Source: an uncultured Luminiphilus sp. (lineage in GTDB: Bacteria > Pseudomonadota > Gammaproteobacteria > Pseudomonadales > Halieaceae). Taken from it: a stretch of DNA of 38,143 bases. Under the pieces are notes generated by a model, which did no database searches, was not told the DNA's origin, and saw nothing but the letters and a program-made list of their open reading frames with translations. Where the stretch lies: positions 1 to 38,143 of the forward strand of contig CAJJBO010000036.1 of NCBI GenBank assembly GCA_905182485.1, given 5' to 3'. Position numbers and translations under genes: made by a program. Positions within the stretch are counted from its first letter, which is position 1, and each line of letters starts with the position of its first letter. Below are positions 4,797-25,375 of this stretch, one piece after another.

Positions 4797-4800
4797 CATC

Positions 4801-6059: not shown

Positions 6060-6456
6060 CGGGTACATAGGATTGGGCAAAGCTATTGTCCTCAGCAAGA
6101 CTTTCACCAGCAAGGTACCACGACGGCCGATGCCGCTCCGCCAGGCCGAGGACCCAATCCAGATTTTTAGGCTTAGAAGGATTACCCAAAACAGGCTGAG
6201 GCCTGTTTCGTCTCTTAGGTCAATGCGCTTGGAGCACTAGGTGTCAAAAGCTCTTTTGGCCTCTTTTGTTAGCGCTGCCGACTTTTACCATGTCAAGGAC
6301 GACTGGCCGCACCAAGACACACGCGGACGCACTAAAACTAGCGGCAACTGAGTAATAGATCAATCGCTGATAAAGACGCGCCCAACGAACCTGAGCATTT
6401 ATGCCATCTACTATAAGCTACGATATGTGGTTGCAATAAGTGCTACTAATGGCAGG
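6060..6456. other. Intergenic region with a partial repeat copy
   Basis: No credible gene lies in these bases. The left part must hold the promoter of the Tat amidohydrolase, though no clear boxes were recognised. The stretch 6277-6328 is a fragment of the dispersed repeat described separately. The right part (6350-6456) is moderately AT-rich and leads into the 3' end of the SCP2-like gene. Confidence 0.6.
6277..6328 (-). repeat. Partial copy (D) of the tRNA-Val-like border repeat
   Basis: These 52 bases differ from 11519-11570 at only 5 positions by hand alignment. They share taccatgtcaaggacgactg and accaagacac. The T-arm and CCA part seen in copies A and C is missing, as is the left inverted-repeat end. 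On the minus strand the fragment starts near the right terminal repeat and runs through the anticodon-loop-like TTGACAT. It is in the same orientation as the other copies and sits at the left border of the molybdenum hydroxylase module. Confidence 0.8.
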
Positions 6457-6804
6457 TTAACCGATGTCGCCTTCTTGTAAAGAAGGGAAAAGCGAGTGCA
6501 TTTTCATGAGGAGCTTTGTTTCACCTTCGAACCGCAACTTTCTCAGGAAAAAAGCCTGTGGCCCCTTTAGTTTTCCGATCGCCATGCCGATATATGTTTC
6601 ACTGGACATTCTTAATGTCAGCGTTGGCGACTCTTCTAATCCCTCATTAGCACTGCATTGACCATTGGTAATATGCAGCACAAAGTTGCCACCTCCCTGC
6701 CCGTTGATTAGGAACTGTACCGTCGCCTCGAGCCCAATCGCTTTTTCCGCAGCAAATCTTGTGGGCATGCCGAATATTAAGTCTTTTATTTTGACATCTG
6801 CCAT
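6457..6804 (-). CDS. SCP2 sterol-binding domain protein
   Basis: From the ATG at 6804 the protein is 115 residues, the size of a stand-alone SCP2 domain. The pattern fits the fold: an N-terminal helix, strands around VQFLINGQGGGNFVLHITNG, then TLTLRMSSETYIGMAIGKL and the closing FEGETKLLMKMHSLFPSL, corresponding to the family's helix with the KxEGD-like turn. SCP2 domains bind lipids or acyl-CoAs in a hydrophobic tunnel and often accompany steroid or fatty-acid catabolism. A longer frame starting at TTG 6873 adds 23 unsupported residues and was not chosen. It is divergently arranged with the methyltransferase gene; only 93 bases separate the two starts. Confidence 0.7.
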   Translation of the reverse strand: MADVKIKDLIFGMPTRFAAEKAIGLEATVQFLINGQGGGNFVLHITNGQCSANEGLEESPTLTLRMSSETYIGMAIGKLKGPQAFFLRKLRFEGETKLLMKMHSLFPSLQEGDIG

Positions 6805-6897
6805 GTGACCGCAACGTGATACCCTGATTCTTGAAGGTAACTTGATCCGTACCGAAAGACCACCGGCCCACAAATAATAAATATCCGGAGGTGAATA

Positions 6898-7506
6898 GTG
6901 GATGCCCGTCTAATTTTGGCGACTTTTGTGACGCTGGTGCTACCAGCGGTGATGGCGTTCTGGATAACGATTCATGGGTGTCTTAGGTTTTGGCGCAAGG
7001 CGGGTGTGGTGCCTGCTTATAGTGCCGCGGCTATCGCTATGACAATCGCCGCATGGTTTGCATGGTATTGGCGTCAGCAGTTGCTGGGGTCTGACCTGGG
7101 ATTTAGCTGGCTGACTGTCATTCCAGGGGTTTTGATCTATGCCGTCTCAATCTGGCTCTCAAAATCTGTTCGAGAGCACTTAAGCCTCAGCACTTTTGCG
7201 GGGGTTCCAGAGATAAAAAACAGTTCTCAATGCCTTATCACCGAAGGTCCGTATACGGTCGTGCGCCACCCAAGGTATACCTTGGTGATCGTCGGCATCA
7301 TAGGATGGTGTCTCGTTTGTAACTTCTTGGGAACCTACGTGGTAGGTGTAATTGCTATATGCGGATTTTATTTAATAGCAGTCCTCGAGGAACGTGAGCT
7401 TCAGCAAAGATTCGGACAAGCGTATTTCGACTATCAGACTAAAGTTCCTCAGATCATCCCCACCTTTGCTGGGTTAGTGAGCTTTTTCCGCTTGAGAAAA
7501 GCGTGA
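6898..7506 (+). CDS. Membrane methyltransferase, ICMT/PEMT-type
   Basis: A 202-residue protein with about five hydrophobic segments and the C-terminal signature of the isoprenylcysteine carboxyl methyltransferase/phospholipid methyltransferase superfamily: GPYTVVRHPRY (117-127), EERELQQRFG (164-173) and YFDYQTKVPQIIP. These residues bind S-adenosylmethionine at the membrane face. Start GTG 6898 is preceded by a strong ccggagg six bases upstream. Only six bases separate its stop from the molybdenum hydroxylase genes, so it is probably cotranscribed with them. The substrate is unknown. Bacterial members methylate lipids, isoprenoids or small thiols, so protein prenylcysteine methylation should not be assumed. 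Confidence 0.75.
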   Translation: MDARLILATFVTLVLPAVMAFWITIHGCLRFWRKAGVVPAYSAAAIAMTIAAWFAWYWRQQLLGSDLGFSWLTVIPGVLIYAVSIWLSKSVREHLSLSTFAGVPEIKNSSQCLITEGPYTVVRHPRYTLVIVGIIGWCLVCNFLGTYVVGVIAICGFYLIAVLEERELQQRFGQAYFDYQTKVPQIIPTFAGLVSFFRLRKA

Positions 7507-7512
7507 ACTAGT

Positions 7513-8445
7513 ATGGATGTGGTCTCGCCCCTCAAACTTGTCGTTAACCGAAGCGCACACGAGATCAACGTTAGCAACTCCGACACGTTATTGACGGTTC
7601 TGCGAGATAATTTGGGTGTCAAGAGTGTCAGGAAGGGGTGTGACAGTGCTCAGTGCGGTAGTTGCACCGTGCTCCTGGATGGCAAGTCGGTAAAGAGCTG
7701 TTCAGTTCTGGCGCTTCAGACACAGGCTCAGTCGGTTATCACAGTCGACGGTTTGGCCGAAGCTAATCGTCTGGGTTCTCTGCAAAGTCATTTCGGTGCA
7801 AAGCACGCACTGCAGTGCGGTTTCTGTACTCCCGGCATGTTGCTCAACGCATCCGAATACCTGGTCCAAAACTCCGATCCGGATCCTGCTCGAATCCGTC
7901 AACAGTTGCGTGGAAATCTATGCCGCTGCACCGGTTACCAAAACATAGTACGCGCGATCAGTTCAGCGGCTAAAGGCGACGATTATGACGAGTCTGAGTC
8001 TCTGAATCTTTGCACGCACCCTGGTCGTGTTGAGGACTCCCGACTGTTGCGTGGAGAGGGGACTTTCACTGACGATATCGAGTTGCCTGGTCAACTTTAT
8101 GCTGGCTTCCTCCGTTCCGAAGTGGCCTATGCGGAGATAAAGAAGATAGATCTATCCGCTCTCAAGGAACTCGTTGGGGTCTGTGCCGTATTTACTGAGC
8201 AAGACGTTTTGTCTGATGGTCTCATGCCCCCTACTTGCAGCTGGCAAATCACGGATGTTTCTGGAGAGCCTATGCGTTCAAAAAGCAGACCGCTCCTCAG
8301 CAGTAAGAAGGTCAAATATGTGGGGCAGCCGATGGCTATGATCGTTGCCACCTCCCGGAAAGTCGCGCAGCAAGCGCTAAAGAAAATCAAAGTCCACTAC
8401 AGTGAATCCAGACCGGTTATCGATCTTAATTCGGCATTAAAATGA
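7513..8445 (+). CDS. Molybdenum hydroxylase [2Fe-2S] subunit fused to the N-terminal domain of the large subunit
   Basis: Residues 1-150 form a complete CoxS/XDH-type iron-sulfur subunit. The plant-ferredoxin cluster ligands are C43, C48, C51 and C63. The second domain carries C102, C105, C137 and C139 (QCGFCTPGM, GNLCRCTGYQNIV). From about residue 170 the chain continues as the beginning of a CO dehydrogenase-type large subunit: RVEDSRLLRGEGTFTDDI, YAGFLRSE, KVKYVGQPMAMIVATS. This is the a/b hammerhead domain. It stops at ALK exactly where the molybdopterin-binding part should follow, and that part starts in another frame with a 4-base ATGA overlap. Either this is an unusual domain split or a frameshift. 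Electrons should pass from molybdopterin through both clusters to FAD. Confidence 0.85.
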   Translation: MDVVSPLKLVVNRSAHEINVSNSDTLLTVLRDNLGVKSVRKGCDSAQCGSCTVLLDGKSVKSCSVLALQTQAQSVITVDGLAEANRLGSLQSHFGAKHALQCGFCTPGMLLNASEYLVQNSDPDPARIRQQLRGNLCRCTGYQNIVRAISSAAKGDDYDESESLNLCTHPGRVEDSRLLRGEGTFTDDIELPGQLYAGFLRSEVAYAEIKKIDLSALKELVGVCAVFTEQDVLSDGLMPPTCSWQITDVSGEPMRSKSRPLLSSKKVKYVGQPMAMIVATSRKVAQQALKKIKVHYSESRPVIDLNSALK

Positions 8446-10337
8446 TTAATATTGTAGACAGCAACGCTGCTTTCAATTGGCAATTGGGGGATGAAGAAAC
8501 AGTCGAACGGGCGTTTAGCTGTGCGGAGCACGTTTCAGCGACGCAGATAGTGAATAACCGTTTAATAGCGGCACCATTGGAGACGCGAGCAGCCAATGGT
8601 AAATATGACGAATCTACCGGGCGATACACCCTTTATGCCACCACCCAGAACCCGCACATATTGAGGCGAGTTCTGGCTGAAGAGGTAGGTATAGCGCCAG
8701 AGCATATGATCGACGTGCTCTCAAAGGATGTTGGAGGTAGTTTCGGTTCTAAAATCTTTGTCTACGGGGAGGAATGTCTTTGCCTGTGGGCGGCGCGAAA
8801 GTTAAATGCGCCGGTCAAGTGGTCTGCAACCAGAGGAGAAAGCTTTGCAGCTGATGTTCATGGAAGAGACCACCTTACGGAGGCGGCTATAGCGCTTGAT
8901 AAAGATGCTCTTATTACCGCAATCAAAGTCAATACACTGGCCAATTTAGGCGCGTACCTTTCACCGTTTGGTTCGCTAGTTCCCACCTATAACTACGCAA
9001 TGATGCTAGCGGGGCCTTACTCAATTCCCAATGTCTTTGCGGAGGTGACAGGTATGTATACGAACACCTCACCCGTCGACGCCTATCGCGGAGCGGGAAG
9101 GCCAGAGGCAACCTTCGTAGTTGAAACGCTCATTGATAATGCCGCGAATGAGCTAGGTCTGGATCCTGTTGAGTTAAGGACTCGGAATTTAATTCAGCCC
9201 GAGCAAATTCCGTATCAAACGCCGACAGGTCTTGTTTTTGATTCTGGAGACTTTCCAGCACACTTTGAAAAAGCGATTGAGCGTGCCAAATATTTTCAAT
9301 TTAACGAAAGACAACAAAAAAGCTTAAGGCAGGGCAAGAGACGTGGTGTTGGAATTTCAAACTATGTCGAAGCTTGCGCAATAGGGCCTTCTGCTATCGC
9401 AGGTGTCCTGGGCGCTGATTACGGTCTATGGGAATCAGCCACTGTTAGGTTCCTACCCACGGCTAAACTTGAGGTTGTTACGGGGTCCCATTCTCAAGGG
9501 CAAGGTCACGAAACCACTTTTGCTCAGGTTGCGAGCAGTGCGCTTGGGATACCGCTAGCAGATATTTCTGTGCTCCACGGTGACACTCGCTGTACCCCTG
9601 TGGGTATGGGGACGTATGGCTCAAGATCTCTCTCAGTTGGTGGTTCGGCCGTTGTTTTAGCCGCCGAAAAACTCATCGAGAAGGGACGAGCGATTGCAGC
9701 CCATTTTTTTTACTGCCAATCATCGGAAGTGGAGTTTGCGTCTGGTGTATTCAAGCACGCCGATGGTGAGGATCAAATGTCGATTCAAGAAATAGTCCGC
9801 ATCGCCCATGCTCCTCACAATTACCCTGAGGATCTTGAGCCCGGGATGGAGGCTACCGCGTTTTACGATCCGAAAAACTTCACCTATCCGTCCGGTACAC
9901 ACATTTGTGAGGTGGAGATTGACCCTGATACTGGATCAGTAGCAGTGGTTAACTACACAGCGGTCGACGACTTCGGTGTGGTAGTGAATAAATCTATCGT
10001 AGAGGGGCAGTTGCATGGCGGTATCGCTCAGGGTATCGGCCAAGCGCTATGGGAGCATGTGAAATACGATTGCGAGACAGGAGAATTGATTACCAAGTCT
10101 TTCAAAGAATATGCCGTTCCGAGGGCCGAGCAGCTTCCCTCATTTGATATCTCTTTTACCCAGACTCCCTGTGAACATAACCCTCTTGGAGTAAAAGGTT
10201 GCGGAGAGTCAGGAGCAATAGCAGCACCACCAGCGGTAATGAATGCTATTTACTCCGCGTTGGGAGAGCGCGTATCAATGCCCGCGACTCCTGAAAAGAT
10301 TTGGCGCTGTATCAAAAAGTCTGCAGGGGGGGGCTGA
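8442..10337 (+). CDS. Molybdenum hydroxylase large subunit, molybdopterin-binding part (CoxL/XDH family)
   Basis: 631 residues that begin inside the normal large-subunit sequence (FNWQLGDEETVERAFSCAEH) and run to its natural end. Family marks are NNRLIAAPLETRA, the molybdopterin loop DVGGSFGSK (96-104), AYRGAGR (214-220), SHSQGQGHETTFAQV, GMGTYGSRSLSVGGSA, and the catalytic loop GVKGCGESG with the general-base Glu589. AYRGAGR is the form-II-like motif rather than the AYxCSFR motif of true aerobic CO dehydrogenase, so oxidation of CO is not expected. Hydroxylation of an aldehyde, N-heterocycle or other CH group is more likely. The start overlaps the previous gene's stop (ATGA). Order here is S-L-M. 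The last codons run through a tract of eight G residues. Confidence 0.85.
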   Translation: MINIVDSNAAFNWQLGDEETVERAFSCAEHVSATQIVNNRLIAAPLETRAANGKYDESTGRYTLYATTQNPHILRRVLAEEVGIAPEHMIDVLSKDVGGSFGSKIFVYGEECLCLWAARKLNAPVKWSATRGESFAADVHGRDHLTEAAIALDKDALITAIKVNTLANLGAYLSPFGSLVPTYNYAMMLAGPYSIPNVFAEVTGMYTNTSPVDAYRGAGRPEATFVVETLIDNAANELGLDPVELRTRNLIQPEQIPYQTPTGLVFDSGDFPAHFEKAIERAKYFQFNERQQKSLRQGKRRGVGISNYVEACAIGPSAIAGVLGADYGLWESATVRFLPTAKLEVVTGSHSQGQGHETTFAQVASSALGIPLADISVLHGDTRCTPVGMGTYGSRSLSVGGSAVVLAAEKLIEKGRAIAAHFFYCQSSEVEFASGVFKHADGEDQMSIQEIVRIAHAPHNYPEDLEPGMEATAFYDPKNFTYPSGTHICEVEIDPDTGSVAVVNYTAVDDFGVVVNKSIVEGQLHGGIAQGIGQALWEHVKYDCETGELITKSFKEYAVPRAEQLPSFDISFTQTPCEHNPLGVKGCGESGAIAAPPAVMNAIYSALGERVSMPATPEKIWRCIKKSAGGG

Positions 10338-11122
10338 ACATCTCCTCGATATTCCATAGCCCTGCAACGATCATCGATGCTGAGGCAATTTATCGCGAGG
10401 CTAAAAAGCCGATTTATCTGCACGGTGGTCAAGAGGTGGTTCTGCGTCTTCAAAATGACTTGGCAGATATCTCTGACTTAATAGACATATCCAATATCGA
10501 TGAGTTGCATGGCCTTCACAAAGAGGGCTCCACCCTATCAATTGGTGCGGGCGAAAATCATGCTGCGATAGCGGGGTCAGGCCTGGTTGCTCAAAAAGCC
10601 CCGGTATTGTGCGAGCTTGCCTCGAACATTGGTGATTCACAAACGAGAAATAGAGGAACGATAGGTGGCGCTATAGCGTCTAAAACACGGTCTTCAGACT
10701 GGAACGCAGCTTTGCTTGCCTTGGATGCAACGATCCACACAACAAAAACCAGTCACATGGCTGAAGACTACTTTTCCAGAGGAGGTTTAACAGCGGGAGA
10801 GCTCATAACCAAAATATGCTTTGAAATTCCGTCTAAGGGCATTTATTTGAAACAAACTAGAGCGTCTAGCACCGATGCTTTAATAGGTGTTTTAGTGAGC
10901 AGATTGGAGAAAAAATGTCGAGTCGCTATCGTCGGGTCGCAGAGAGTAGCCTTTCTGTGCCCAGCGCTGGAGGCTGCTTTAAGTGCAAAATTTCATCAGG
11001 ATGTGTATGACCAGAGTCATATTCCTGAGGGCATATTGGCTGACAATGCCGACGCTAGCCTAGAGTACCAACTGAATCTAGTAGAGGTCCTCTGTAAAAG
11101 AGCTATCAGTAGTTGTGCTTAA
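10301..11122 (+). CDS. Molybdenum hydroxylase FAD-binding subunit (CoxM-like), divergent
   Basis: This gene follows the large subunit and has the FAD subunit pattern: FHSPATIIDAEAIYREA at the N-terminus, the FAD loop LHGGQEVVLRLQ, LSIGAGENHAAIA, and RNRGTIGGAIASK with DWNAALLALDATI. The usual D-P after the GTIGG loop is not seen, and the C-terminal CO_deh_flav_C region is weakly conserved, so it is a distant member. The start is uncertain. The open frame begins at TTG 10301, inside the previous gene, but homology starts only after the eight-G tract at 10326-10333, near CTG 10334, which overlaps the TGA of the large subunit. Either an atypical start or a homopolymer-length error is possible. 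Its role is to pass electrons from the iron-sulfur clusters to an acceptor. Confidence 0.7.
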   Translation: MALYQKVCRGGLNISSIFHSPATIIDAEAIYREAKKPIYLHGGQEVVLRLQNDLADISDLIDISNIDELHGLHKEGSTLSIGAGENHAAIAGSGLVAQKAPVLCELASNIGDSQTRNRGTIGGAIASKTRSSDWNAALLALDATIHTTKTSHMAEDYFSRGGLTAGELITKICFEIPSKGIYLKQTRASSTDALIGVLVSRLEKKCRVAIVGSQRVAFLCPALEAALSAKFHQDVYDQSHIPEGILADNADASLEYQLNLVEVLCKRAISSCA

Positions 11123-11663
11123 GACATCGGTTTTAACGCAGTGATTAAAGCGGAGGTGCATAGCGTGATCTCGCAGATTACAGATCATTACTCATCGATT
11201 GCTGCCACTGTGGTCGACAACGAGAAGCGTTTTGTCACGGGACAGAACCAAAACTCCAGCCATGACCGCTCAGAAGATCATGGCCATTTTGGAGGAGCTT
11301 GTTCAATAAGAAGTCGTCTGACGGCAGATTTTCTGGGGATGGACCCCTGAGACGAGCACTTTATATCTGATAATTGCCCGACAGCGTTTCAATTCATCAA
11401 TCACTACCTTTGCGCGGTAGCGTCCACGCACAGAAACACGCCAAAACGCACGATTGTGCGATCTATAGTGTTTTCAATGACTTACAGTTCATTTGGTAGG
11501 ACCAGGCGGATTCGAACCGCCGACCTCTACCATGTCAAGGACGACTGGCCACACCAAGACACGCGTGGACTCCCCTTGAAATAGCAGGATTCGAGGCGAT
11601 TAAGTCAGAATTCCAACCCTTTTATTTTCGGGGGCTTGGTAGAAAAAAAGTGCTACCGATAGG
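11123..11663. other. Intergenic region containing repeat copy A
   Basis: No gene is supported. Weak open frames exist (for example 11141-11350 on the plus strand), but they lack a recognisable domain and ribosome-binding site. The region holds the best copy of the border repeat (11405-11570). It is followed by about 90 bases leading to the 3' end of the crotonase gene. Confidence 0.6.
11405..11570 (-). repeat. Border repeat, copy A, with tRNA-Val-like 3' half
   Basis: On the minus strand, from 11570 downward, the element begins with GTCCACGC. It continues through an anticodon-loop-like TTGACAT (GAC, Val), GGTAG, a perfect T-arm (GGCGG-TTCGAAT-CCGCC), an acceptor-like TGGTCCTA and CCA at 11496-11494. 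About 65 bases later come GCGTGGAC and CTACC-GCGCAAA-GGTAG. GTCCACGC (plus strand 11422-11429) and GCGTGGAC (11563-11570) are terminal inverted repeats 149 bases apart overall. The tRNA 5' half is absent: the bases before the loop do not form a full anticodon stem and no AGGACCA acceptor strand exists. It is therefore not a functional tRNA gene. Copies B, C and D share this orientation. Confidence 0.85.
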
Positions 11664-12455
11664 TTATTGGTCTTTCCAAATCGGTGATCTTTTTTCAAGA
11701 AATGCATTTATGGCTTCCCTCGCGTCCGCCGTACCCGCAACAAGCGCTTGCTGGCGGTCTTCAAGTGCCATAGCGGCATCCAATGACGGGGCGTCAATAC
11801 TTAAGTTCAAGCCGTCCTTGGTTAATCGCAACCCCATTGGGGAAGTGAGAAGCATCTCGGCAATATAACTCTCGGCTGCGGCTGTCAGCTCTTCCTCAGC
11901 GACCACGTCAGATACTAGGTTAATCCTCAACGCACGGTCCGCATCAATGAACCTTCCGGTCATCATTAGTTCACTGGCTACTGATAAACCGACCAGTCGC
12001 GGTAACAGGTAACTGCAACCCATATCGCATGCAGTTAAACCGGCGCGGATATAAGCGGCATTCATTTTTGCGGTGGTTGCAGCAATCCGAATGTCTGAGG
12101 CGAGTGCGAGACTAAATCCACCGCCGCAAGCGGCGCCTTGGATCAATGAAATAATGGGCTGCGGGCAACGGCGCATCGCTCGATAAATATCAGAAATGTT
12201 ACGCTGCATGGCGAGTAGCGCGCTCGGTGAATCGCTAGTTCCCCATCCTTCCGATTGCAAATCCAGCCCTGCACAGAAGGCCTTGCCATTGGCTCGGAGT
12301 ACGACAATGCGCACATCTTGTCGGGCTTTGAGAGTATCAAATGTCTCTCTCAAAGCGCTGACCAAAGGTTCATTCATTGCATTTAACGCTTTGGGCCGAT
12401 TCATAGTCAGCCAAAGCGTTTCGCCTTTAAGCTCTCTCAGCAGTGTGTCAGTCAC
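11664..12455 (-). CDS. Enoyl-CoA hydratase/isomerase family protein (crotonase fold)
   Basis: 263 residues with the crotonase oxyanion-hole elements AFCAGLDL (59-66) and QGAACGGGFSLALASDIRIA (106-125). The later segment YIRAGLTACDMGCSYLLPRLVG has an Asp (144) near the position used by dienoyl-CoA isomerases. It lacks the paired glutamates of classical 2-enoyl-CoA hydratase, with Tyr135 at or near the first. Isomerase, hydrolase or lyase chemistry on a CoA ester is as likely as hydration. It is the last gene of the five-gene minus operon mutase, B12 subunit, MeaB, acyl-CoA dehydrogenase, crotonase, and starts 49 bases after its neighbour. The start is GTG, with aggga about 10 bases upstream on the minus strand. 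Confidence 0.85.
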   Translation of the reverse strand: MTDTLLRELKGETLWLTMNRPKALNAMNEPLVSALRETFDTLKARQDVRIVVLRANGKAFCAGLDLQSEGWGTSDSPSALLAMQRNISDIYRAMRRCPQPIISLIQGAACGGGFSLALASDIRIAATTAKMNAAYIRAGLTACDMGCSYLLPRLVGLSVASELMMTGRFIDADRALRINLVSDVVAEEELTAAAESYIAEMLLTSPMGLRLTKDGLNLSIDAPSLDAAMALEDRQQALVAGTADAREAINAFLEKRSPIWKDQ

Positions 12456-12504
12456 GGTGTCTTGTCCCTGCAGGATGGTGAATGCTTGAGTCGGTTAGCG
12501 CTTT

Positions 12505-13641
12505 TTACAGTGAGCGCGCTATCAAGAGTCGCATAATCTCTGATGTGCCTCCATGAATAGTATCGATACGCGAGTCTTTGTATAACTGTGCAATCGGGTA
12601 TTCATTCATCCAGCCGTAGCCACCGAAAAACTGTACGCAGCGGTTTATACCGTCTACCTCGCGCTCGGTTATCCATAGCTTAGCCATGGAGGCAGTAGCA
12701 GCATCTAACTCGCCCTGAAGTAATAAATTCGTGCAGTGATCGAGAAAGGCTCTGCCAATCGTGACTTCGGTTTTTATATCGGCCAAAGAGAACGCGGTAT
12801 TTTGAAAATCCAGTAATGACTGACCAAAGGCCTGACGCTCTTTGGTGTACTCAACCGTAAGGGTCAGCGCACGTTCGAGCATACCAAGGCCCATCACCGC
12901 GATACCGAGTCGCTCCTGTGGCAATAACGCCATCAATTGCGCAAAACCTTTACCGGGCACGCCACTCAGAACGTTACCGAGAGGGAGTCTTACATCTTCA
13001 AAAAAAAGCTCCGATGTGTCTTGTGCATCGCGGCCGACCTTATCGAGATTTTTGCCGCGCGTGAAGCCTGCTCGGTCACCCTCCACGAGGAAAATAGAGA
13101 TCTTGTCTGGGCCGTCCTCCATTTCGGTTTTGGCACAAAGCAATACCAAATTCGCCATCTGGCCATTAGAGATAAATACTTTACTTCCGTTGATGACCCA
13201 CTCGTCACCATCCCGAACTGCGCGGGTTCGCATGCCTTGGAGGTCCGAGCCTGCTCCGGGTTCAGTCATGGCAATGGCTAAAATCGCATCGCCAGAGACC
13301 ACTTTGGGTAACCACTGGGTTTTCTGATCGGGTGTGCCATGCTCTATCAAATAAGGCGCCGCGATCATGTTATGAACGGGTACGCCCCAACCTTCAAGGC
13401 CGCGCTCGGCAAAAGCTTCCATAATTGCCCGCTCGTAGCGGAAATCCACACCCAAGCCGCCGTGTTCCTCCGGTACCAGAACCCCGAGCATCCCAAACTC
13501 GCCAGCTGCTAACCACGCATCGCGATCTACTTGCTTATTTTGATTCCAGCGTTCAATGGTCTTTGGTGGCGCGGTCTTGTTTAGGAAAGCCGAAAGGCTA
13601 TTCCGAAAAATAGCCAGTGCTTCATCACTTTCTGTGGGCAT
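12505..13641 (-). CDS. Acyl-CoA dehydrogenase
   Basis: 378 residues with the three-domain acyl-CoA dehydrogenase layout. The N-terminal helical domain includes LGVLVPEEHGGLGVDF. The middle beta domain has AIAMTEPGAGSDLQGMRTRA and WVINGSKVFISNG. The C-terminal helical domain has ERLGIAVMGLGMLERAL, QFFGGYGWMNEYPIAQLYKDSRI and ends IHGGTSEIMRLLIARSL. The position that carries the catalytic Glu in medium-chain enzymes (E of EGTSEI) is Gly here, so the base is probably elsewhere, as in isovaleryl- or long-chain-type enzymes. It forms an alpha,beta-double bond in an acyl-CoA with FAD and passes electrons to ETF. Its operon position suggests a branched or cyclic acyl-CoA in the same pathway as the mutase. 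Confidence 0.9.
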   Translation of the reverse strand: MPTESDEALAIFRNSLSAFLNKTAPPKTIERWNQNKQVDRDAWLAAGEFGMLGVLVPEEHGGLGVDFRYERAIMEAFAERGLEGWGVPVHNMIAAPYLIEHGTPDQKTQWLPKVVSGDAILAIAMTEPGAGSDLQGMRTRAVRDGDEWVINGSKVFISNGQMANLVLLCAKTEMEDGPDKISIFLVEGDRAGFTRGKNLDKVGRDAQDTSELFFEDVRLPLGNVLSGVPGKGFAQLMALLPQERLGIAVMGLGMLERALTLTVEYTKERQAFGQSLLDFQNTAFSLADIKTEVTIGRAFLDHCTNLLLQGELDAATASMAKLWITEREVDGINRCVQFFGGYGWMNEYPIAQLYKDSRIDTIHGGTSEIMRLLIARSL

Positions 13642-13667
13642 TATGCATTCTCGTTAATGAAAAGGGC

Positions 13668-14621: not shown

Positions 14622-14626
14622 GGTTG

Positions 14627-15003
14627 TTATTTGATACCGGTCAGCTGCTCTGCGGCATCCACAATATGCATATATTCTGCGCCGATAGATAAACCTCTAC
14701 ACCCAGCGCTTCGAGTTGTTTGGCGGCGTGGGGCGGGATTGTGCCGCCAGCGAATATGGGTAGGCCAGGGCGTACCGCTTGGACGTTTTCTATTGATCTA
14801 ATAGCCACGTCAATGTGGCCGCCGATATTGAGACCTACAAGGTCTACGTCTTCGTCGACGGCTGAGGTAACGATATCGTCGGTGTTGGCCATACCAATCA
14901 TGATGACCTCGAAACCGGCATCGCGTAAGGCTCTGGCGACAATTGTTGGTCCGCGCCAGTGCCCATCAAGGCCCGTCTTGGCCATTAATATCCGTTTTTG
15001 CAC
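14627..15003 (-). CDS. Cobalamin-binding subunit of acyl-CoA mutase, 3' end frameshifted
   Basis: A stand-alone B12-binding domain, as in two-subunit isobutyryl- or hydroxyisobutyryl-CoA mutases. KTGLDGHWRG contains the base-off motif DxHxxG (Asp13, His15, Gly18). His15 should replace dimethylbenzimidazole as the lower cobalt ligand. VDLVGLNIGGHID and FAGGTIPPHAAKQL complete the Rossmann core. As read, the frame ends at 14641 with NICILWMPQSS, which is foreign to the family. In the next frame the bases down to 14627 read IGAEYMHIVDAAEQLTGIK, the expected last helix. A one-base indel near 14690 explains this. The core is intact, so the shortened form might still bind cobalamin, but the missing helix makes that doubtful. 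Confidence 0.85.
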
Positions 15004-15024
15004 CCTAGTCTCCCCAAGCAGACA

Positions 15025-16656: not shown

Positions 16657-16688
16657 TTTTCTGCCGCTTTTTTAATTTTTTAGGTCGG

Positions 16689-16739
16689 TTGATACTCGAA
16701 GCATACAATAATTTACTTATCAGTACTGCATTGATACTC
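16689..16739. promoter_or_regulatory. Candidate operator/promoter region between divergent units
   Basis: The 114-base gap between the mutase and Fe-alcohol dehydrogenase starts contains an inverted repeat TATCA-N9-TGATA (16718-16736), a suitable size for a TetR dimer. It also has a direct repeat TTGATACTC at 16689-16697 and 16731-16739. A TetR gene lies in the adjacent plus unit. The strong ribosome-binding site aagaggag follows at 16757-16764. Assignment as operator is an inference from position and symmetry. Confidence 0.4.
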
Positions 16740-16770
16740 TCTGGTTATAAATACAAGAAGAGGAGCGTTA

Positions 16771-17949: not shown

Positions 17950-17952
17950 CCG

Positions 17953-18663
17953 ATGAACAACGCAGCTACCAAGACTGATCTTGATCTCAAAAGCGAAGTA
18001 TCAGACTTCAAGAGAAGACGCATTCGCGAGGAGGCATGTGACCTTTTTTATGAGATGGGTTACGAGAGCACAACTCTTGACGCTATTGCGCAACGGCTCA
18101 AAGTTACCAAGCCTTATCTCTACAAGCATTACGCGAATAAGCGAGAGCTCCTGTATGACATTTGCAGGACTGGTATTGCGCGCTCATTAGAGGCTGTCAC
18201 GGCTTCTTGCTTTCAAGGAAGATCCTGTTCAGAAAAACTTCAGGGGCTGGCTGAGTCAGTGCTGGAAGTTATTTTCGAACACCAGAAATTTATTGTCGTG
18301 TACACGCGAGAAGAGAAAAATCTGCAGCCAGACGAAGTGAGGGCAATTAGAGATCAGCGGAAACTGTTCGATCACCAGTTGGCGGAGTTGCTTCGAGAGG
18401 GCGATCAAGCTGGCGAATTTCAGGTTTCTGATCCCCTTCTCACTGCCAATACAATTGGCGGCGTTGTCACCTGGATAGCGCTGTGGTACTCGCCGGATGG
18501 CAAAAGATCAAAATTGGAGATACTTACACATACGCTGGAGATGATCTCTAAGGTTGTTACACCAAAAACCCCGCTTCACCCCTTGAACAACCGATCCCAG
18601 CAACCAGCCCAATATTCTGGCGTTGCATCGATTAGTGCTAAGCGAGGCAAGGCAGATGAGTGA
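17953..18663 (+). CDS. TetR/AcrR family transcriptional regulator
   Basis: 236 residues. The N-terminal part (about 20-70) has the TetR helix-turn-helix: ACDLFYEMGYESTTLDAIAQ, LKVTKPYLYKHYANKRELLY. The C-terminal ligand domain is variable, as expected, with an extra polar tail of about 30 residues. TetR proteins of catabolic clusters usually repress until an acyl-CoA or pathway compound binds. The gene lies between the Fe-alcohol dehydrogenase and acyl-CoA ligase genes and overlaps the ligase by 8 bases. The inverted repeat at 16718-16736 is a likely target. The ligand is unknown. Confidence 0.9.
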   Translation: MNNAATKTDLDLKSEVSDFKRRRIREEACDLFYEMGYESTTLDAIAQRLKVTKPYLYKHYANKRELLYDICRTGIARSLEAVTASCFQGRSCSEKLQGLAESVLEVIFEHQKFIVVYTREEKNLQPDEVRAIRDQRKLFDHQLAELLREGDQAGEFQVSDPLLTANTIGGVVTWIALWYSPDGKRSKLEILTHTLEMISKVVTPKTPLHPLNNRSQQPAQYSGVASISAKRGKADE

Positions 18664-20270
18664 GGGGCGGACTGTGATTGCTGATCCCAGGGTGGTTCCC
18701 CGAGATCGCTGTGTCACTCGGTATTTGCTTGATGACTTCGCACAGACGCAACCAAATAAAGAGTTCGCCGTATTCCAAGACGGAGATGTTTGGTCTTACG
18801 AAACCGTGAGGGAAAAGGTCCGTGCACTCGCCGCGGGCTTTGCCAAGCAGGGAGTTGCGCAAGGCGATCACGTGGCAGTCTGGATGTTTGATAGTAAAGA
18901 AGCCATTCTGACTTTTTTCGCGATCAATTACTTGGGTGCAGTTTTTGTTCCTCTTAATACCGCATTTAAGGGGCAGGTCCTCAGTCACGTCTTAACCGTC
19001 TCGGACGCATCGCTCATGGTGGCGCATGGACAGTTGCTCGAGCGCCTTGACGCGACAGAGGCGGCCAGTATTTCTAAAATCATTTACTTGGGCGCCAACA
19101 CCGGCGCATCTGGTCTTGAACTCGTCGAATACTCAACGGTCTCAGGTGAGATTACGGCGCCTCCAGCGTTATTGAAGCCCATTGAGCCGTGGGACACGCA
19201 ATCGATCATTTTCACCAGTGGCACAACCGGGCCCTCAAAAGGCGTGCTGTCGTCGTATCTCCATATTTTCACAAATGCTGGACCAGAAATAGGTGTTGCT
19301 TCAACGAAAGCCTTTCCTCATTAATATGCCGATTTTCCATATTGGTGGCATGGGCGTCATTTTTGTCATGTTGTGTCGTGGCGGATCGATTGCGGTCATG
19401 GATGGATTCGATACCGAGCAGTTTTGGCCTTTTGTAAAGGAAAGTCAGACCAGCGCTTTTTTCCTGCTCGGTGTTATGACTACATTCTTACTTAAAAAAG
19501 AGCCATCGGAGCAAGACAAGGACCACAATGTCCGACTCGCCTTTATGGTGCCACTGACCGAGACCTGCACCGAATTCCATGAGAGATTCGGAATTGATGT
19601 TTATACGATTTTTAATATGACCGAAATCTCATCGCCAATTGTTTCTGATCCCAATCCGACCAAACGTGGCACGTGCGGTAAGAAAAGGGATGGTGTGGAC
19701 GTGAGGCTCGTCGATGAAAACGATTGCGAAGTGGCGCTTGGTGAGATCGGTGAAATGATTGTAAGAACTGATCGGCCGTGGGGCATGAATAGCGGCTATT
19801 ACAAAAACCCAGTGGCTACAGCAGAGGCTTGGCGTAACGGGTGGTTTCATACAGGAGACTGCTTTCGTCAGGACGATGAGGGCTATTTTTACTTCGTTGA
19901 TAGAATGAAAGACGCGATGCGTCGTCGAGGTGAGAATATCTCGTCATTCGAGGTGGAAGCCGAGGTGGTCGCTTATACCGACGTGAGGGAAGCCGCTGCC
20001 TACGCTGTCCCCAGTGACATTGGTGAGGACGACGTCATGATCTCGGTGGCGCCCGTCGCAGGTAAAGAAATTGATCACGCTACGTTGCTGAATTTTTTGG
20101 GGGATCGTATGCCTTATTTCATGATTCCTCGGTATATCAGAGTCCTTGATGAATTACCAAAAACGCCTTCAGCCAAGGTCATGAAGCACGTTCTTAGGTC
20201 TGAGGGAGTGACACCTGAGACTTGGGACCGCGAACAGCACAAAAAAATTTTAAAAGAGAAAAAAAATTAG
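18656..20270 (+). pseudogene. AMP-dependent acyl-CoA ligase interrupted by a frameshift near 19310
   Basis: ATG 18656 overlaps the TetR stop. The first frame carries the N-domain up to the AMP-binding loop IIFTSGTTGPSKGV and then ends at 19324 with a foreign tail (STKAFPH). The remaining two thirds continue in another frame from about 19310: FLINMPIFHIGGMGVIF, then IFNMTEISSPIV, GWFHTGDCFRQDDEGYFYFVDRMKD, RRRGENISSFEVE and the terminal lysine segment LPKTPSAKVMKHVLR. The GMTEIS-like block and overall pattern resemble the carnitine/crotonobetaine-CoA ligase branch. A one-base indel near aaagcctttcc rejoins one enzyme of about 537 residues. It would activate a carboxylic acid to its CoA thioester. 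It may be a sequencing error, since the rest is well conserved. Confidence 0.85.
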
Positions 20271-20312
20271 ATGACGCGTAACCAACGAATATAATGTGAT
20301 AAGGGATAAATC

Positions 20313-22511
20313 ATGACAAATAAAAACTGTACACAGGCATTGGGTTTAGGACTGTTATTTATCGCCAATTCGTGGAGTGCCCTGGCTCAGGAAAGCGCCT
20401 TAGAAGAGGTAGTGGTGACGGCTACCAAGCGTTCTGTGGCATTACAGGATCTTGCTGGCTCCGCCAATGTATTGGGAGCCGACAAATTGGGGCCAGGTGG
20501 TATCCAAGAGGTTCGGGATATGCAAGTCGATATCCCCAATCTGTCTATAGGCGATCAATTCGGTTTTGCCCGGGTATTCATGCGCGGTATTGGCATGACA
20601 AGTATTGATATTGGTGGAGAGGGTGCGGTCGCTTTTCTTCAGGACGGCGCAATTATTCCCAGACCGGCAGCTCAATTAATGGGTATGTTTGATCTGGATC
20701 AGGTGGAGGTACTGCGTGGTCCGCAGGGCACCCTCTACGGCCGAGGTGCAACAGGGGGTGCAATCAACATGGTGACCGCGAAACCCGGTGAAGAGTTTGG
20801 CGGGTATCTGAGCGTAACCGCGGGCAACTATAGCCTCGCCCAGTTTAAAGGCGCCATCGATGTGCCGATGGGGGATGCGTTATCGATGCGTATAGCGGCT
20901 AGCCTCGATAGCAGGGATGGATACGGCAACAATATCTTCACGGGTTCAGATATCAACGACCGCGATGCTAGTGCTTATCGAGCAACCTTTGTTTATGACG
21001 ATGGCGGACCCCTTAAGGCGACTCTCTCTGCACAATACTACGAGGAGGATGATAATAACTATGCCTTCAGTTACTTCGGTCAGTCGCAGGGATCAAGTAT
21101 ACCTGTCCCCTTCGGAGTGCCGATCCTCGGTGGCAATACCGTCGGAATGGTGGGTGGCGACTTCTACGATATTAATTCCGATCAGGAACCTATCAATGAT
21201 CGCGATGGTCAGCTAATCAACCTGACGATTGACTATGCTTTTGACGATAGCTGGAGTCTGAAGTCCATCACTTCTTCGCAAAGTATGGATCGATTTCTCC
21301 GGGATGATCTCGACTCAACTGACGCCAATTTGTTTGGGCAGAATAACTACACCGAGGAGAGTGACTCGTTGGGTCAAGAGCTAATCCTTAACTTTTCGAA
21401 CGATCGGCTCGATGTGCTTAGCGGGGTGATGTATTTCGAGGAGGAGCTATACGGGGAGGTTAGAGTCCCGCTTACCAATCTATGTTTTCTTCTCGCACCC
21501 GATGCCTGTGGTACCCCGGTGGGAGAATTCCTTAACAGCGGAAACTACCTTCAGGACGGAGATATAGATATCGAAGCCTGGGGTGCTTATGTTGAAGGCA
21601 CCTATAGTCTGTCCGATGCTTGGTCAGTTATTGCTGGTCTGAGGTATAACTACGAAGAGAGGGATGGAACGGGCTCCTTTATATTTGATGCTATCGGTCT
21701 TGATGTTCCAACGAATCAGCGCGAAAGTTGGAATGATTTAACGCCTAGGGTGACCCTTCAATACTCCCCCAATGACAATATGATGCTTTATGCCACCTAC
21801 ACTGAGGCGTTCAAGTCCGGAGTGATTAATACCGGTAGTACGAGCCCACCCCTAGATCCAGAGACTGTTGACGCATTTGAGATAGGCCTTAAAGGCCAGA
21901 ATGGCAGTGGTACCTTGAGATACTCTGTCGCCGCGTTTTTCTATGATTATCAGGACATGCAGATATCCTTTGTCGACGAGACAAGCACGGTGTCAACAAT
22001 CAATGCTGCAGAGGCCGAGAACACAGGCCTAGAACTGGAGTTGGAAGGAAACTTTGAGAACGGGTTCTCCTTTGATTTTTATCTGACTTACCTTAGCGCG
22101 GAGTATCAGGAGTTTTTCAACGGTGATTACGCTAATGGCTTCGCGATTGCTGATCTTAGCGGCAATAACCTGCCGAACGCACCGGAGAGCACGGCAAAAC
22201 TAGGACTAAATTGGGAGGGTCAAGTGGGTAACGGTGTCCTGCGACTGCGTGGTGAGGCTTATTACCAAGACGATGTCTACTTCACGGAATGGAATCGACC
22301 AGATGCATACCAAGCTTCTTACGAGCAATACAATGCATCGGCCGAGTACTCGTGGAATGACCAGTGGCAACTGAGCGTCTGGGGACGGAATCTAAGTGAT
22401 GAAGAAGTGATGTCTAATAATATTATCACTGCCCCACTTTATGACTCTCTCCGAGTGGGTGCGGTATTACCTCCGCGTACCTATGGAGCTACCCTTACCC
22501 TCCAGTTCTAG
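20313..22511 (+). CDS. TonB-dependent outer-membrane receptor
   Basis: 732 residues. The signal peptide (1-25, ending SALA before QES) is followed by a TonB box EEVVVTATKR (31-40). The plug domain holds VEVLRGPQGTLYGRGATGGAINM. A large set of amphipathic strands follows, ending in the outer-membrane sorting signal GATLTLQF with a terminal Phe. Such receptors import large or hydrophobic molecules using TonB energy. It sits between the acyl-CoA ligase and P450 genes, so it probably imports the module's growth substrate rather than iron; that is inferred from context. It starts 42 bases after the ligase stop, with ataaggga before the ATG. Confidence 0.9.
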   Translation: MTNKNCTQALGLGLLFIANSWSALAQESALEEVVVTATKRSVALQDLAGSANVLGADKLGPGGIQEVRDMQVDIPNLSIGDQFGFARVFMRGIGMTSIDIGGEGAVAFLQDGAIIPRPAAQLMGMFDLDQVEVLRGPQGTLYGRGATGGAINMVTAKPGEEFGGYLSVTAGNYSLAQFKGAIDVPMGDALSMRIAASLDSRDGYGNNIFTGSDINDRDASAYRATFVYDDGGPLKATLSAQYYEEDDNNYAFSYFGQSQGSSIPVPFGVPILGGNTVGMVGGDFYDINSDQEPINDRDGQLINLTIDYAFDDSWSLKSITSSQSMDRFLRDDLDSTDANLFGQNNYTEESDSLGQELILNFSNDRLDVLSGVMYFEEELYGEVRVPLTNLCFLLAPDACGTPVGEFLNSGNYLQDGDIDIEAWGAYVEGTYSLSDAWSVIAGLRYNYEERDGTGSFIFDAIGLDVPTNQRESWNDLTPRVTLQYSPNDNMMLYATYTEAFKSGVINTGSTSPPLDPETVDAFEIGLKGQNGSGTLRYSVAAFFYDYQDMQISFVDETSTVSTINAAEAENTGLELELEGNFENGFSFDFYLTYLSAEYQEFFNGDYANGFAIADLSGNNLPNAPESTAKLGLNWEGQVGNGVLRLRGEAYYQDDVYFTEWNRPDAYQASYEQYNASAEYSWNDQWQLSVWGRNLSDEEVMSNNIITAPLYDSLRVGAVLPPRTYGATLTLQF

Positions 22512-22540
22512 AGCCTATTAGCTGGAGAGGATGTCAGCAC

Positions 22541-23770
22541 ATGACACACTTTAGTTTTAATCCGATGGATCCTGAAATGCTTCAGGATCCTTATCCCACC
22601 TTCCAGAAACTGCGCGATACAGACCCTATTCACCGATCTGATCTTGGCTTCTGGGTCGCCACTCGCTACGAAGACTGTCGCTCTGTCCTGATAGATAAAG
22701 AATTTGGACAGGGCGACTTCTCCAAAAACATTCAGCTCTTCTATGACGATTCTTTCGATGTATTAGCCCAGCCGGCATACGCTTGGCTTTCCCGCGTTTT
22801 CGTGATGCAAGATCCGCCCCAGCACACTAGAGTCCGGGACCTTGTTGCTGGAGCGCTGACACACAAACGCGTTAGGGAAATGGCTCCTCGAATACGGCAA
22901 TTGGCGAGGCAACAGCTACATCAATTCGCTAAAAGCGACGACGGAAATTTTATTACTGACTTCGCCTACTTGTTTCCTACTCTGGTGATGTGTGACATGT
23001 TGGGGATGGAGGAGGGGGAGTTTTCTTGGGAGTTGTTAGCTGAACTCAATCAAGCAGTAGCAGACACCTTTCCCGTTTTTGAAACGCGAGCGCTGGCGCC
23101 AGAAGAGCTTGCCCTGGCAAATAGCCAGATGGAGTTCCTGACTGAGTTTTTTGACGACCTGTTTCAACGGCGTAAGAAAAATCCCCGAGACGATCTCACA
23201 ACAGCTATGGTCAAGGCAGGTGATGGCGGCGATGCGTTAACAAAAGAAGAACTGAGCACCTCCGTTATTGGCCTTTTCGGCGCTGGATTTGAGACGACGG
23301 CCCACATGATAGGGAACGGACTTTTTTGTCTTGGAGACAATCCGGACCAACGGCGTAAATTGCAGGGCAACATCGATTTGGTCGACGCCGCCGTGGAAGA
23401 AATTCTACGCTATGAATCATCTTTGCAAGCGACATATAGAACCGCTCTGGAGCCGAGAGAAATTGCGGGGCAGAAAATCGAGGTCGGTGATCGCGTGTTG
23501 ACTATTGTCGCGGCGGCCAATCGAGACGAGCGTCATTTCGATAATCCAGAAGCATTTGACATCAGCCCAAGAGAACAGAAACCCTTAACTTTTGGCGGCG
23601 GGATCCATTACTGCGTTGGCGCTGCACTAGCTCGGTTGGAGGGCAGAATATTTTTGGAGGAACTTTTTTCACAATACCCCAATTTTTCAGTAGATGTAGA
23701 GTCAGCGCGTCTCCGTGGAGCTTTTTTATTTCGCGGTTATCAGGATTTAAGGGTGCAGCTGAGGGGTTGA
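22541..23770 (+). CDS. Cytochrome P450
   Basis: A 409-residue soluble bacterial P450. The C-helix region is DPPQHTRVRDLV (91-102). The I-helix oxygen-binding motif is GAGFETTAH (247-255). The K-helix ExxR is E287-R290. The heme loop is FGGGIHYCVG with the cysteine ligand Cys358. It uses electrons from a ferredoxin system that is not encoded in the window. The gene lies 29 bases after the TonB receptor and 3 bases before the flavin monooxygenase, so it is probably in the same transcript. It likely hydroxylates the imported compound or an early intermediate. CYP family cannot be assigned by eye. Confidence 0.92.
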   Translation: MTHFSFNPMDPEMLQDPYPTFQKLRDTDPIHRSDLGFWVATRYEDCRSVLIDKEFGQGDFSKNIQLFYDDSFDVLAQPAYAWLSRVFVMQDPPQHTRVRDLVAGALTHKRVREMAPRIRQLARQQLHQFAKSDDGNFITDFAYLFPTLVMCDMLGMEEGEFSWELLAELNQAVADTFPVFETRALAPEELALANSQMEFLTEFFDDLFQRRKKNPRDDLTTAMVKAGDGGDALTKEELSTSVIGLFGAGFETTAHMIGNGLFCLGDNPDQRRKLQGNIDLVDAAVEEILRYESSLQATYRTALEPREIAGQKIEVGDRVLTIVAAANRDERHFDNPEAFDISPREQKPLTFGGGIHYCVGAALARLEGRIFLEELFSQYPNFSVDVESARLRGAFLFRGYQDLRVQLRG

Positions 23771-23773
23771 GCG

Positions 23774-24842
23774 ATGCGATCTGAACAGCATCAGAAACTG
23801 GCTCTTGGGCTCTTTATGCCCAATTGTTCAAACATGCCCTCAATTTCAACTCACCGCGTTGTGGAAGACCAATGGACTTATGAACACAACGAAGCCATAG
23901 CACTCGCTGCAGAGGGTTATGGCTTTGATTATTTGTTTCCGGTATCACGCTGGCGAGGTTTTGGTGGGGAGACCAATTTCCTGGGTACCTCTCTTGAAAC
24001 GACGACTTGGGCAGCAGCCCTTTTGCGAGCAACTAGCTCGATTCAAGTATTTTCAACCGTTCATATTCCGCTCTTTCATCCCTTTGTCGTTGCAAAAATG
24101 GGTTCTACGCTGGCGCAGATGAGCGGTAATCGGTGGGGATTAAATATCGTGAGCGGATGGAGTCAAAGAGAATTCGGCATGATGGGAGTGCCCAAAGCGA
24201 ACGTTTTGTCGCCGTTACGAGCGGACCAGTTGTTTTGTGGAAATTCTCAGAAAACTTTGGACGGCCAGCGAGCAACCCTTTGACTACGAATGTGACTGGT
24301 ATTCGGTGAAGGGCGGAGAGTCCTCGCCTGTGCCAGATAGTCACCCCATGATCGCTAATGCAGGTGTATCCGAGGACGCAAAAAACATGACGGCTCGATT
24401 GTGCGATTGGGCCTTTATCTCTACTCCTTCTGTCGAGGCAGTTAGGCCGACGATTATAGATATTACTCAAAAAGCGAGGGAGCACGGGCGCTCAGTCAAA
24501 ACCGCGATATTTCCATTCCTGATCTGGGGGCAATCGAGGGCTGAGGCTGAGGAGCGCCTGGCCGCGATAATCGCAGAAAAGGACGGGGTTGCCACCGCAA
24601 ATTGGCTGAATGACCTAACTGCTGGCAGTGGATCGTTCGACACGTTTACATCTGACATGTTGGCGGCCTCCGGGGGCGGGGTGCACATGGTTGGCACCGC
24701 AGACGATGTTGCCGAGCAACTTGTAGAAGCCCACCGGTTGGGAGTGAATGCGGTGATGCTGACATTCCCAGAATATCTTGCTGATCTGCATCGATTTGCA
24801 AAAGATATCCAACCCATCCTGTCGAGGGCTGGTTGTATTTGA
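23774..24842 (+). pseudogene. Luciferase-like flavin monooxygenase, frame broken near 24200-24235
   Basis: The first frame (from ATG 23774) reads GLFMPNCSNMPSIS, YLFPVSRWRGFGGETNFLG, VFSTVHIPLFHP and WGLNIVSGWSQREFGMMG. This is the LLM family close to SfnG or pyrimidine-oxygenase-like members, which use reduced FMN. After GVPKAN the frame runs into an unrelated end at 24283. The expected continuation RRYERTS, VEILRKLWTASEQPFDYE is in another frame and runs to 24842, including HPMIANAGVSEDAKNM, HMVGTADDVAEQL and LGVNAVMLTFPEYLADL. One or two small indels within about 24200-24235 account for the break. Restored length is about 355 residues, normal for the family. It is the last gene of the plus unit. 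Confidence 0.85.
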
Positions 24843-24880
24843 GTGGATGGGGCGACGAGGCCGCAGATCTGCCGGGTCAT

Positions 24881-25142
24881 TACCTTCACGCAGTAGTGTC
24901 CACGCACAGAAACACGACAAAACGCACCGTCTCAAATAATAGTAAAGTTCATGGCAATAGAGACGTAAGAATTTGTTAGGACTAGGTGGGTTGTCTTAAA
25001 TCGTCATTGCCTCTGGCGATTGAAATCTGCGGGCGCCTGTGCGTCGCTCCGGTGGACAAAAACGCTCATTTGGTCGCGTTTGTTGAGCCGCTGGCCTCTG
25101 CGATGTCAAGTCCGATTGCCCGCACCAAGACACTTGCCCGCG
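24881..25142 (-). repeat. Border repeat, copy B, degraded and interrupted
   Basis: The left part matches copy A closely (tagtgtccacgcacagaaac, keeping inverted-repeat end GTCCACGC at 24898-24905). A worn version of the CCA/acceptor/T-arm block is at about 24974-24995 (ttaggactaggtggg). After about 100 unrelated bases the anticodon-loop region reappears at 25092-25130 (gatgtcaag, caccaagacac). The right inverted-repeat end is not recognisable. Spacing from the left block to the CCA-like block is about 93 bases, as in copies A and C. Confidence 0.65.
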
Positions 25143-25206
25143 CATAAGGGGCGGGTCGTTTTCTGATAATGACGCTCCGTCAACGGGCCCTGCGCTATCC
25201 AGCCGA

Positions 25207-25375
25207 TACCTTTGCGCGGTAGTGTCTATGCAAAGAAACACGTCAAAACTCGCGATTTCGAAAAAATAAAGGTTAATAAAAAAAGAGGCTTAAAAAATTG
25301 GTAGGACCAGGCGGATTCGAACCGCCGACTGCTACCATGTTAAGGCCGATTGGCCGCACCAACACACGCGTAGAC
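25207..25375 (-). repeat. Border repeat, copy C, with tRNA-Val-like 3' half
   Basis: This has the same order and spacing as copy A. On the minus strand it shows an anticodon-loop-like TTAACAT (AAC), GGTAG, a perfect T-arm, TGGTCCTA and CCA ending at 25299. Terminal inverted repeats are GTCTATGC (25224-25231) and GCGTAGAC (25368-25375). Compared with copy A, one C-G pair has become T-A at both ends, a compensatory change, and another pair becomes T-G. This argues that pairing of the ends is selected or recently generated as a unit. The element spans 152 bases between its ends. Confidence 0.85.

Follow-up and report, generated by a model that had tools for sequence, protein, structure and literature searches.

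Same-strand tRNA-Val-derived repeats in a Luminiphilus contig as probable junctions of a modular gene array

What do the four repeats mean that lie between the catabolic gene clusters of an uncultured Luminiphilus sp. (Gammaproteobacteria; Halieaceae) and that resemble parts of a tRNA-Val gene? They occur in a stretch of 38,143 nucleotides, here called the window, which is contig C36 (CAJJBO010000036.1) of a 2.17-Mb metagenome-assembled genome (MAG; GCA_905182485.1; 42 contigs, 69.6% complete). There, minus-strand repeats set apart a molybdenum-hydroxylase module (Mo), a mutase/P450 module (P), and a dikinase/P450 module (A). An earlier note on this DNA, made from the sequence alone, proposed that the repeats mark module borders, derive from integration at tRNA 3' ends, and could allow the enclosed genes to be shuffled. 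From comparison with related genomes (G numbers below; C numbers are contigs), we regard the repeats as probable attachment-site junctions, and the locus as likely to be a tandem array of site-specific integrative modules that is anchored at tRNA-Val(GAC) and includes many modules without an integrase. They would best be understood as borders at which a modular gene-exchange system recombines: whole metabolic clusters seem to have entered the region, passed between species, and in one instance relocated.

Repeat detection recovered all four window copies as three repeat families (D1-D3). A BLAST search of the own genome with copy 11401-11573 (copy A) hit seven places: five rows in the window that cover the four copies (including 25207-25375 at an E-value of 1.4e-28, 6277-6328 at 5.6e-14, and the degraded copy as 24877-24927 and 25085-25133), and two on contig C24. 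Every copy in the window has minus-strand orientation and falls within one of the intergenic intervals 6113/6457, 11122/11664, and 24842/25575, as judged from open reading frames (ORFs) of at least 120 aa; the exception is an ORF on the opposite strand (24467-24907), which overlaps the main gene and extends into the degraded copy. Repeat detection, BLAST, and ORF positions thus agree on the four same-strand intergenic copies that the earlier note had reported.

Read along the minus strand, a junction consists of a 30-bp left arm (GTCCACGCGTGTCTTGGTGCGGCCAATCGG, a consensus drawn by eye), the core CC-TTGACAT-GGTAG, which is the anticodon arm of tRNA-Val(GAC), the tRNA 3' half down to CCA, and an AT-rich right arm, and in some copies the motif CTACC-N7-GGTAG, the second site, then comes ~120 nt past the core. 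Copy A and copy C (25206-25375) each preserve the loop of the anticodon arm (TTGACAT in A, TTAACAT in C), a T-arm that pairs, and the 3' strand of the acceptor with CCA, but no tRNA 5' half, just as had been described, and neither ARAGORN nor Rfam called a tRNA in the window. The conserved span also takes in ~30 bp ahead of the tRNA part and ~100 bp behind it. The proposal that the sites are tRNA 3' ends therefore holds for the 3' half but has to be widened to the left arm and core and, in one class, the second CTACC-N7-GGTAG. In the degraded copy the T-loop carries ~90 extra nucleotides. By eye, this insert resembles a repeat that relatives (G016, G031, and G077 at ~776.2-776.7 kb) carry downstream of their intact tRNA-Val genes and that terminates in the last ~20 nt of the tRNA, an arrangement that we take to be rtT-like; an Rfam search of four loci at gathering thresholds for rtT or another known RNA at the insertion returned only three tRNAs.

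An intact tRNA-Val(GAC) lies at C24:19326-19402 of the same MAG, with a junction-type right arm behind it and a further junction 7 kb beyond it at C24:26368. Together with the junction anatomy, this supports the suggested origin by integration at a tRNA. The order in this genome is tRNA-F on C24 and A-P-Mo on the window (module letters are ours, and x and y denote additional genes). The two contigs could not be joined through shared ends, as neither 300-nt end of the window has a 15-mer in common with C24. They are linked because G004:C247 places homologues of both together: the flank outside the array in the window is 94.5% identical to this contig, where it comes ~30 nt after DNA homologous to parts of C24:26735-28370. 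tRNA-Val(GAC) also heads arrays in G034, G021, G006, G035, and G077.

Copy A matched 41 of 58 genomes, many solely via the tRNA. The 33-nt left-arm-plus-core pattern (up to 3 mismatches) was found in 13 of the 57 genus genomes and its reversed control in none of the 57, which excludes a chance origin; the genus holds 28 left-arm copies in 13 genomes. We scored 75 sites in 32 regions, comprising the fetched stretches and the window, with intact tRNA-Val genes counted, arm-only and T-arm-only matches excluded beforehand, and the later-found G069:C104, G029:C3, G061:C35, and G004:C247 omitted. The same exclusions and omissions hold for the border counts and for the near-strict second-site count below. 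None of the 61 sites in the 18 regions with at least two sites was discordant in strand, the fragments following the direction of the tRNA, and the largest array (G034) has seven sites spanning 67 kb, tRNA first. Random scatter of the copies, which would have spoken against the proposal, was not found, as the copies cluster in arrays at tRNA-Val. The ends of homology blocks within arrays also cluster: 61 of 141 are no more than 60 nt from a core (under random placement: mean 3.58, standard deviation 2.74, and maximum 16 in 2000 rounds), and 21 further ends lie 60-230 nt downstream of a core, in the second-site zone (random mean 4.95, maximum 17). As a single module enters comparisons in several genome pairs, these are not independent observations; merging the ends left 90 borders, 30 at the core and 12 at second-site distance. 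An age gradient, with core decay rising with distance from the tRNA, was sought with a mixed result: decay rises in G021 and G035, not in G034 and G029.

Module order differs between species. It reads tRNA-B-G-C-A-H-I-J in G034, tRNA-B-y-A-D-C in G021, and B-E-D-C-A-F-x-I in G029, where the tRNA and the array are on separate contigs and the end of C28 has the start of B behind the tRNA. C precedes A in G034 and G029 but comes after it in G021, and F comes first behind the tRNA in G000 but after A in G029. These orders bear out the suggested shuffling between species, and one syntenic arrangement common to all relatives was not found. Module B (4.8 kb), an ABC transporter operon by eye with no Pfam assignment behind that label, has 99.5-99.8% nucleotide identity over 3.9-4.8 kb among G034, G021, and G029; one conserved flank in the same three species is at 88.5-90.7% and the nearer flank at 74-79%. 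In 100-nt windows the body of B is at 97-100%, the first 300 nt behind the tRNA are lower (84-97%), and similarity drops to background past the core (versus G021) or past the right arm (versus G029). Module E is present in G029, in G018, and adjoining tRNA-Val in G069 (C104), where it is the sole module between the tRNA and a native-type junction; between G069 and G029, identity is 91% across E and 74-80% in the DNA upstream of the tRNA. In G018 (C28, ~13341), E begins at CTACC-ATCGAAG-GGTAG with no tRNA 3' half before it, a module-to-module junction without a tRNA piece.

Module J (13.5 kb) appears to have been placed once away from the tRNA. It lies in the array of G034 (C8, 54.9-68.3 kb) and off-array in G029 (C3:128261-141735), and the two copies are 88-90% identical at their ends (8.2 + 1.8 kb). 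In G029, its left end reads CTACC-TTATAAA-GGTATTGATCA and its right end is the left arm followed by CC-TTATAAG-CGTAG. When joined, the flanks correspond to one unbroken stretch in G034:C3 (819/819 nt, 85%) and likewise in G069:C22 (814 nt, 85%), and the empty site in both relatives reads CTACC-TTGTAAA-GGTAG, a mimic of the anticodon arm. At J's place, G024:C92 and G036:C496 have left-arm fragments and a gene common to G061:C37. These fragments suggest that the mimic site may be a recurrent hotspot; they were not accepted as a further occupied case, being too decayed for a clean unit. Elsewhere, the stretch at ~3084-10256 of G061:C35 is bounded on one side by CTACC-CCTCCAT-GGTAGTGATC and on the other by a left arm with CC-TTGACAT; no tRNA was called across the 40 kb fetched, and it is a possible second off-tRNA module.

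The perfect motif CTACC-N7-GGTAG occurs 31 times in 1,274,756 fetched bases, compared with 1.2 expected at equal base frequencies, a count that is not genome-wide because the fetched bases are enriched for arrays. Seventeen occurrences are tRNA-Val genes, eight are second sites 115-126 nt past the core, two are ends of near-identical integrase segments (G035 and G066), two are left ends of E (G018 and G069), one is, we infer, a probable left end in G061:C35, and one in G025:C25 is unexplained. A near-strict second site (NTACC-N7-GGTAN) was present at 10 of 68 scorable sites, versus 147 of 20,000 random windows from the same regions, and the second site therefore marks one class of junction, not all.

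A candidate enzyme adjoins the tRNA in several relatives. Proteins of ~300 aa, assigned to the tyrosine integrase family by their PF00589 match, begin 90-97 nt behind tRNA-Val in G006 and G035. A profile of these two found strong members in 5 of 57 congeners (G006, G035, G066, G077, and G005; E <= 1e-100) and weak matches in G025, G074, and G002 only (E 1e-14 to 5e-12); order-wide, 2 of 244 genomes matched at E <= 1e-40, one with a fragment interrupted by stops. All seven strong members adjoin tRNA-Val(GAC), and this integrase would presumably be the responsible enzyme. When G035 is set against G001, its integrase segment fills precisely the interval from the tRNA 3' end to CTACC-N7-GGTAG; the ~115-bp piece of G001, which shares these ends, therefore has the look of a remnant. 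The distance from the tRNA to the next junction is 9.1 kb in G006 and 25.5 kb in G077, where the stretch (C1, ~750.7-776.2 kb) holds the integrase and an HmaABC-like defence operon. The DNA presumably passes between cells by some route; no conjugation family was present among seven G006 and three G035 proteins (Pfam) or three G077 proteins (PADLOC), with no wider conjugation search made. A viral origin was discarded, since the exact 33-nt pattern had no matches in viral contigs and the integrase profile retrieved from them only two fragments of 24% identity.

We propose that a tRNA-Val-linked tyrosine integrase would recombine the 7-bp anticodon loop that CTACC and GGTAG half-sites enclose; anticodon arms commonly serve as targets of integrases. 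Such an enzyme is carried by some elements and is absent or decayed in most of the arrays seen. Each integrated unit would terminate in a conserved arm, either GTCCACGCGTGTCTTGGTGCGGCCAATCGG or one of a second family, and supply a tRNA 3' half, so that the tRNA would be restored, and serial insertions would leave 3'-half fragments behind in a single orientation. Integrase-free cargo between junctions, moving presumably in trans or in cis with its neighbours, could then be gained, lost, reordered, or carried to another CTACC-N7-GGTAG site.

Several observations weigh against this reading. The linked integrase raised in the earlier note stands beside tRNA-Val in relatives but was not found here, as a profile search gave no integrase-family match in the own MAG, incomplete as it is; one partial PF00589 match is on C19. 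Intact integrases are also missing from the most module-rich arrays (G034, G021, and G029), which retain, by eye, an integrase-like N-terminal remnant behind the tRNA. Of the merged borders, 48 of 90 are at neither core nor second-site distance. Most of the genomes are incomplete and split into many contigs. In G034, G021, and G029, a native-type tRNA terminator stands at the junction ahead of A, which may therefore have started as ordinary downstream DNA. The copies of J are uneven, at 65-75% in three middle pieces. P, junction-bounded in the window, is off-array and without junctions in G034:C3 and G029:C3 (92.5% identity over 13.2 kb), with 8.9 kb of extra synteny on one side and none on the other within the fetched stretch. 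Mo is junction-bounded in the window, ends at a junction in G061:C37, has a partial copy on a 5.5-kb contig of G034 (C39), and is off-array in G021:C12; no arm remnant (up to 9 substitutions) was found around it there or around off-array P. The view of the copies as module borders is thus supported by the clustering of block ends at cores but qualified by P and Mo, which also occur off-array with no detectable junction and could be native operons that the array took up, or else modules with decayed junctions. Finally, the spacers at a module's two ends differ in most modules, which counts against the mechanism because conservative recombination with homologous overlap does not predict it.

The lack of an intact integrase in most arrays seen would also fit fossil attachment sites, with islands that came by integrase and were later shuffled mostly by RecA-mediated exchange between ~170-bp repeats, including uptake of repeat-flanked DNA. 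This is possible, though not probable: the copies are long enough for homologous exchange and T-loop variants look like products of exchange of the tRNA T-arm with the downstream repeat, but J's place in G029:C3 resembles the array site visibly only by CTACC-N7-GGTAG, and many borders fall at the core or second site. Likewise possible, though not probable, is a two-level cassette system in which the tRNA anticodon arm is the primary site. There, an integrase element and its ~115-bp remnant would restore tRNA-Val, and integrase-free operon cassettes (GGTAG...cargo...arm-CC), linked by a variable 7-nt spacer, could enter, be swapped at, or leave for any CTACC-N7-GGTAG mimic of the anticodon arm without overlap homology, integron-like but for whole pathways. 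The identical 6 bp at both ends of J (TTATAA in G029:C3) and the varying 7-nt spacers at module starts recall transposon-like cargo units with a 6-bp target duplication and hairpin-like CTACC-N7-GGTAG targets; we think this improbable, as by eye J is not bordered by inverted repeats, its target resembles the anticodon arm of the tRNA that the tyrosine integrase family adjoins, and a Pfam scan of 30 window proteins found no transposase. Very improbable, and already disfavoured, is a free-standing tRNA-derived interspersed repeat that spread by itself and separates operons by accident: there are more copies than integrases and no gene between two window copies (24.9-25.4 kb), but left-arm copies are junctions with a tRNA 3' part with few exceptions (e.g., G029:C3, G061:C35, and a contig end in G059), point in one direction per region, and often coincide with synteny breaks.

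For the favoured tandem array of site-specific modules, Table 1 lists the junctions of the window and the gene content from the same Pfam scan. Module A is truncated by the contig end in the window and flanked by junctions on both sides in G034, G021, and G029. Within P, the genes for an AMP-binding enzyme (18623-20270) and a luciferase-like monooxygenase (23774-24842) each consist of two overlapping ORFs that match consecutive parts of a single Pfam profile, through decay or an assembly frameshift.

Table 1. Junctions, modules, and flank in the window (positions 1-38,143)
Feature	Start	End	Strand	Content
Flank outside array	2623	6142		Ceramidase, 2OG-Fe(II) oxygenase, amidohydrolase
Partial junction	6277	6328	-	Left arm 6299-6328 and anticodon-arm core; no T-arm left
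Molybdenum-hydroxylase module (Mo)	6457	11122		SCP2, PEMT, [2Fe-2S]/Ald_Xan_dh, MoCoBD, FAD_binding_5
Intact junction, copy A	11401	11573	-	Left arm 11541-11570; core loop TTGACAT 11532-11538; tRNA-Val 3' half to CCA ~11491-11540; right arm; second site CTACC-GCGCAAA-GGTAG 11404-11420
Mutase/P450 module (P)	11664	24842		Enoyl-CoA hydratase, acyl-CoA dehydrogenase, MeaB, methylmalonyl-CoA mutase, Fe-ADH, TetR, AMP-binding, TonB receptor, P450, luciferase-like
Degraded junction	24877	25136	-	Left arm and decayed core 25062-25136; right arm; decayed second site CTACT-GCGTGAA-GGTAA near 24880-24896
Intact junction, copy C	25206	25375	-	Left arm 25346-25375; loop TTAACAT 25337-25343; tRNA-Val 3' half; right arm; second site CTACC-GCGCAAA-GGTAT 25206-25222
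Dikinase/P450 module (A)	25575	38143		SDR, PPDK_N/PEP-utilizers, TetR, P450, His_Phos, AMP-binding, Aldedh

That RNA genes can host tandem islands bordered by repeats is established (PMC3146451, PMC4119200, PMC7771536, PMC10872708). The ssrA islands of Dehalococcoides (PMC3146451) are similar in being tandem islands downstream of one RNA gene, in directly repeating the 3' end of that gene within 100 kb, with a conserved motif beside each repeat, and in carrying an integration module in some islands only, with cargo far more alike than that module. They differ in that a serine recombinase acts there in the tmRNA T-loop, whereas here a tyrosine recombinase family lies beside tRNA-Val, the crossover would be in the anticodon loop, and there is a second CTACC-N7-GGTAG site. 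Additive flexible genomic islands (fGIs), for which the cases are Alteromonas fGI1 (PMC4119200), Actinomarinales fGI1 (PMC7771536), and Methylophilaceae fGI-2 (PMC10872708), share a conserved tRNA targeted by successive cassettes, or direct repeats of tRNA fragments beside variable islands. As far as their descriptions go, the array here is set apart from them by the arm, overlap, and second-site anatomy and by the off-tRNA mimic with its empty-site control. Cis-mobilizable elements and tandem accretion (ICESt1; as cited in PMC3146451) likewise involve integrase-free units bounded by attachment sites and located between related ones. Salmonella genomic island 1, as portrayed in PMC2297512, resembles the array in its secondary chromosomal site and tandem integration but consists of one mobilizable resistance island, whereas the array here comprises several metabolic modules. 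Tycheposons, in the account given by PMC10872708 and compared by borders and cargo, share the tRNA border, a tyrosine recombinase, and metabolic cargo, whereas the arrays here are dominated by integrase-free repeated modules. Among the literature matches listed, none described a tRNA-Val array of this kind, which is weak evidence of absence.

The best reading is therefore of a known kind of system, that of additive flexible islands and the Dehalococcoides ssrA islands, with a new border anatomy. It offers exact, testable borders for the passage of whole catabolic clusters between species of one genus and a natural pair of empty and occupied sites at a tRNA mimic. Should the second site and the variable spacer prove functional, a tyrosine integrase with a relaxed overlap would trade operon-sized cassettes.

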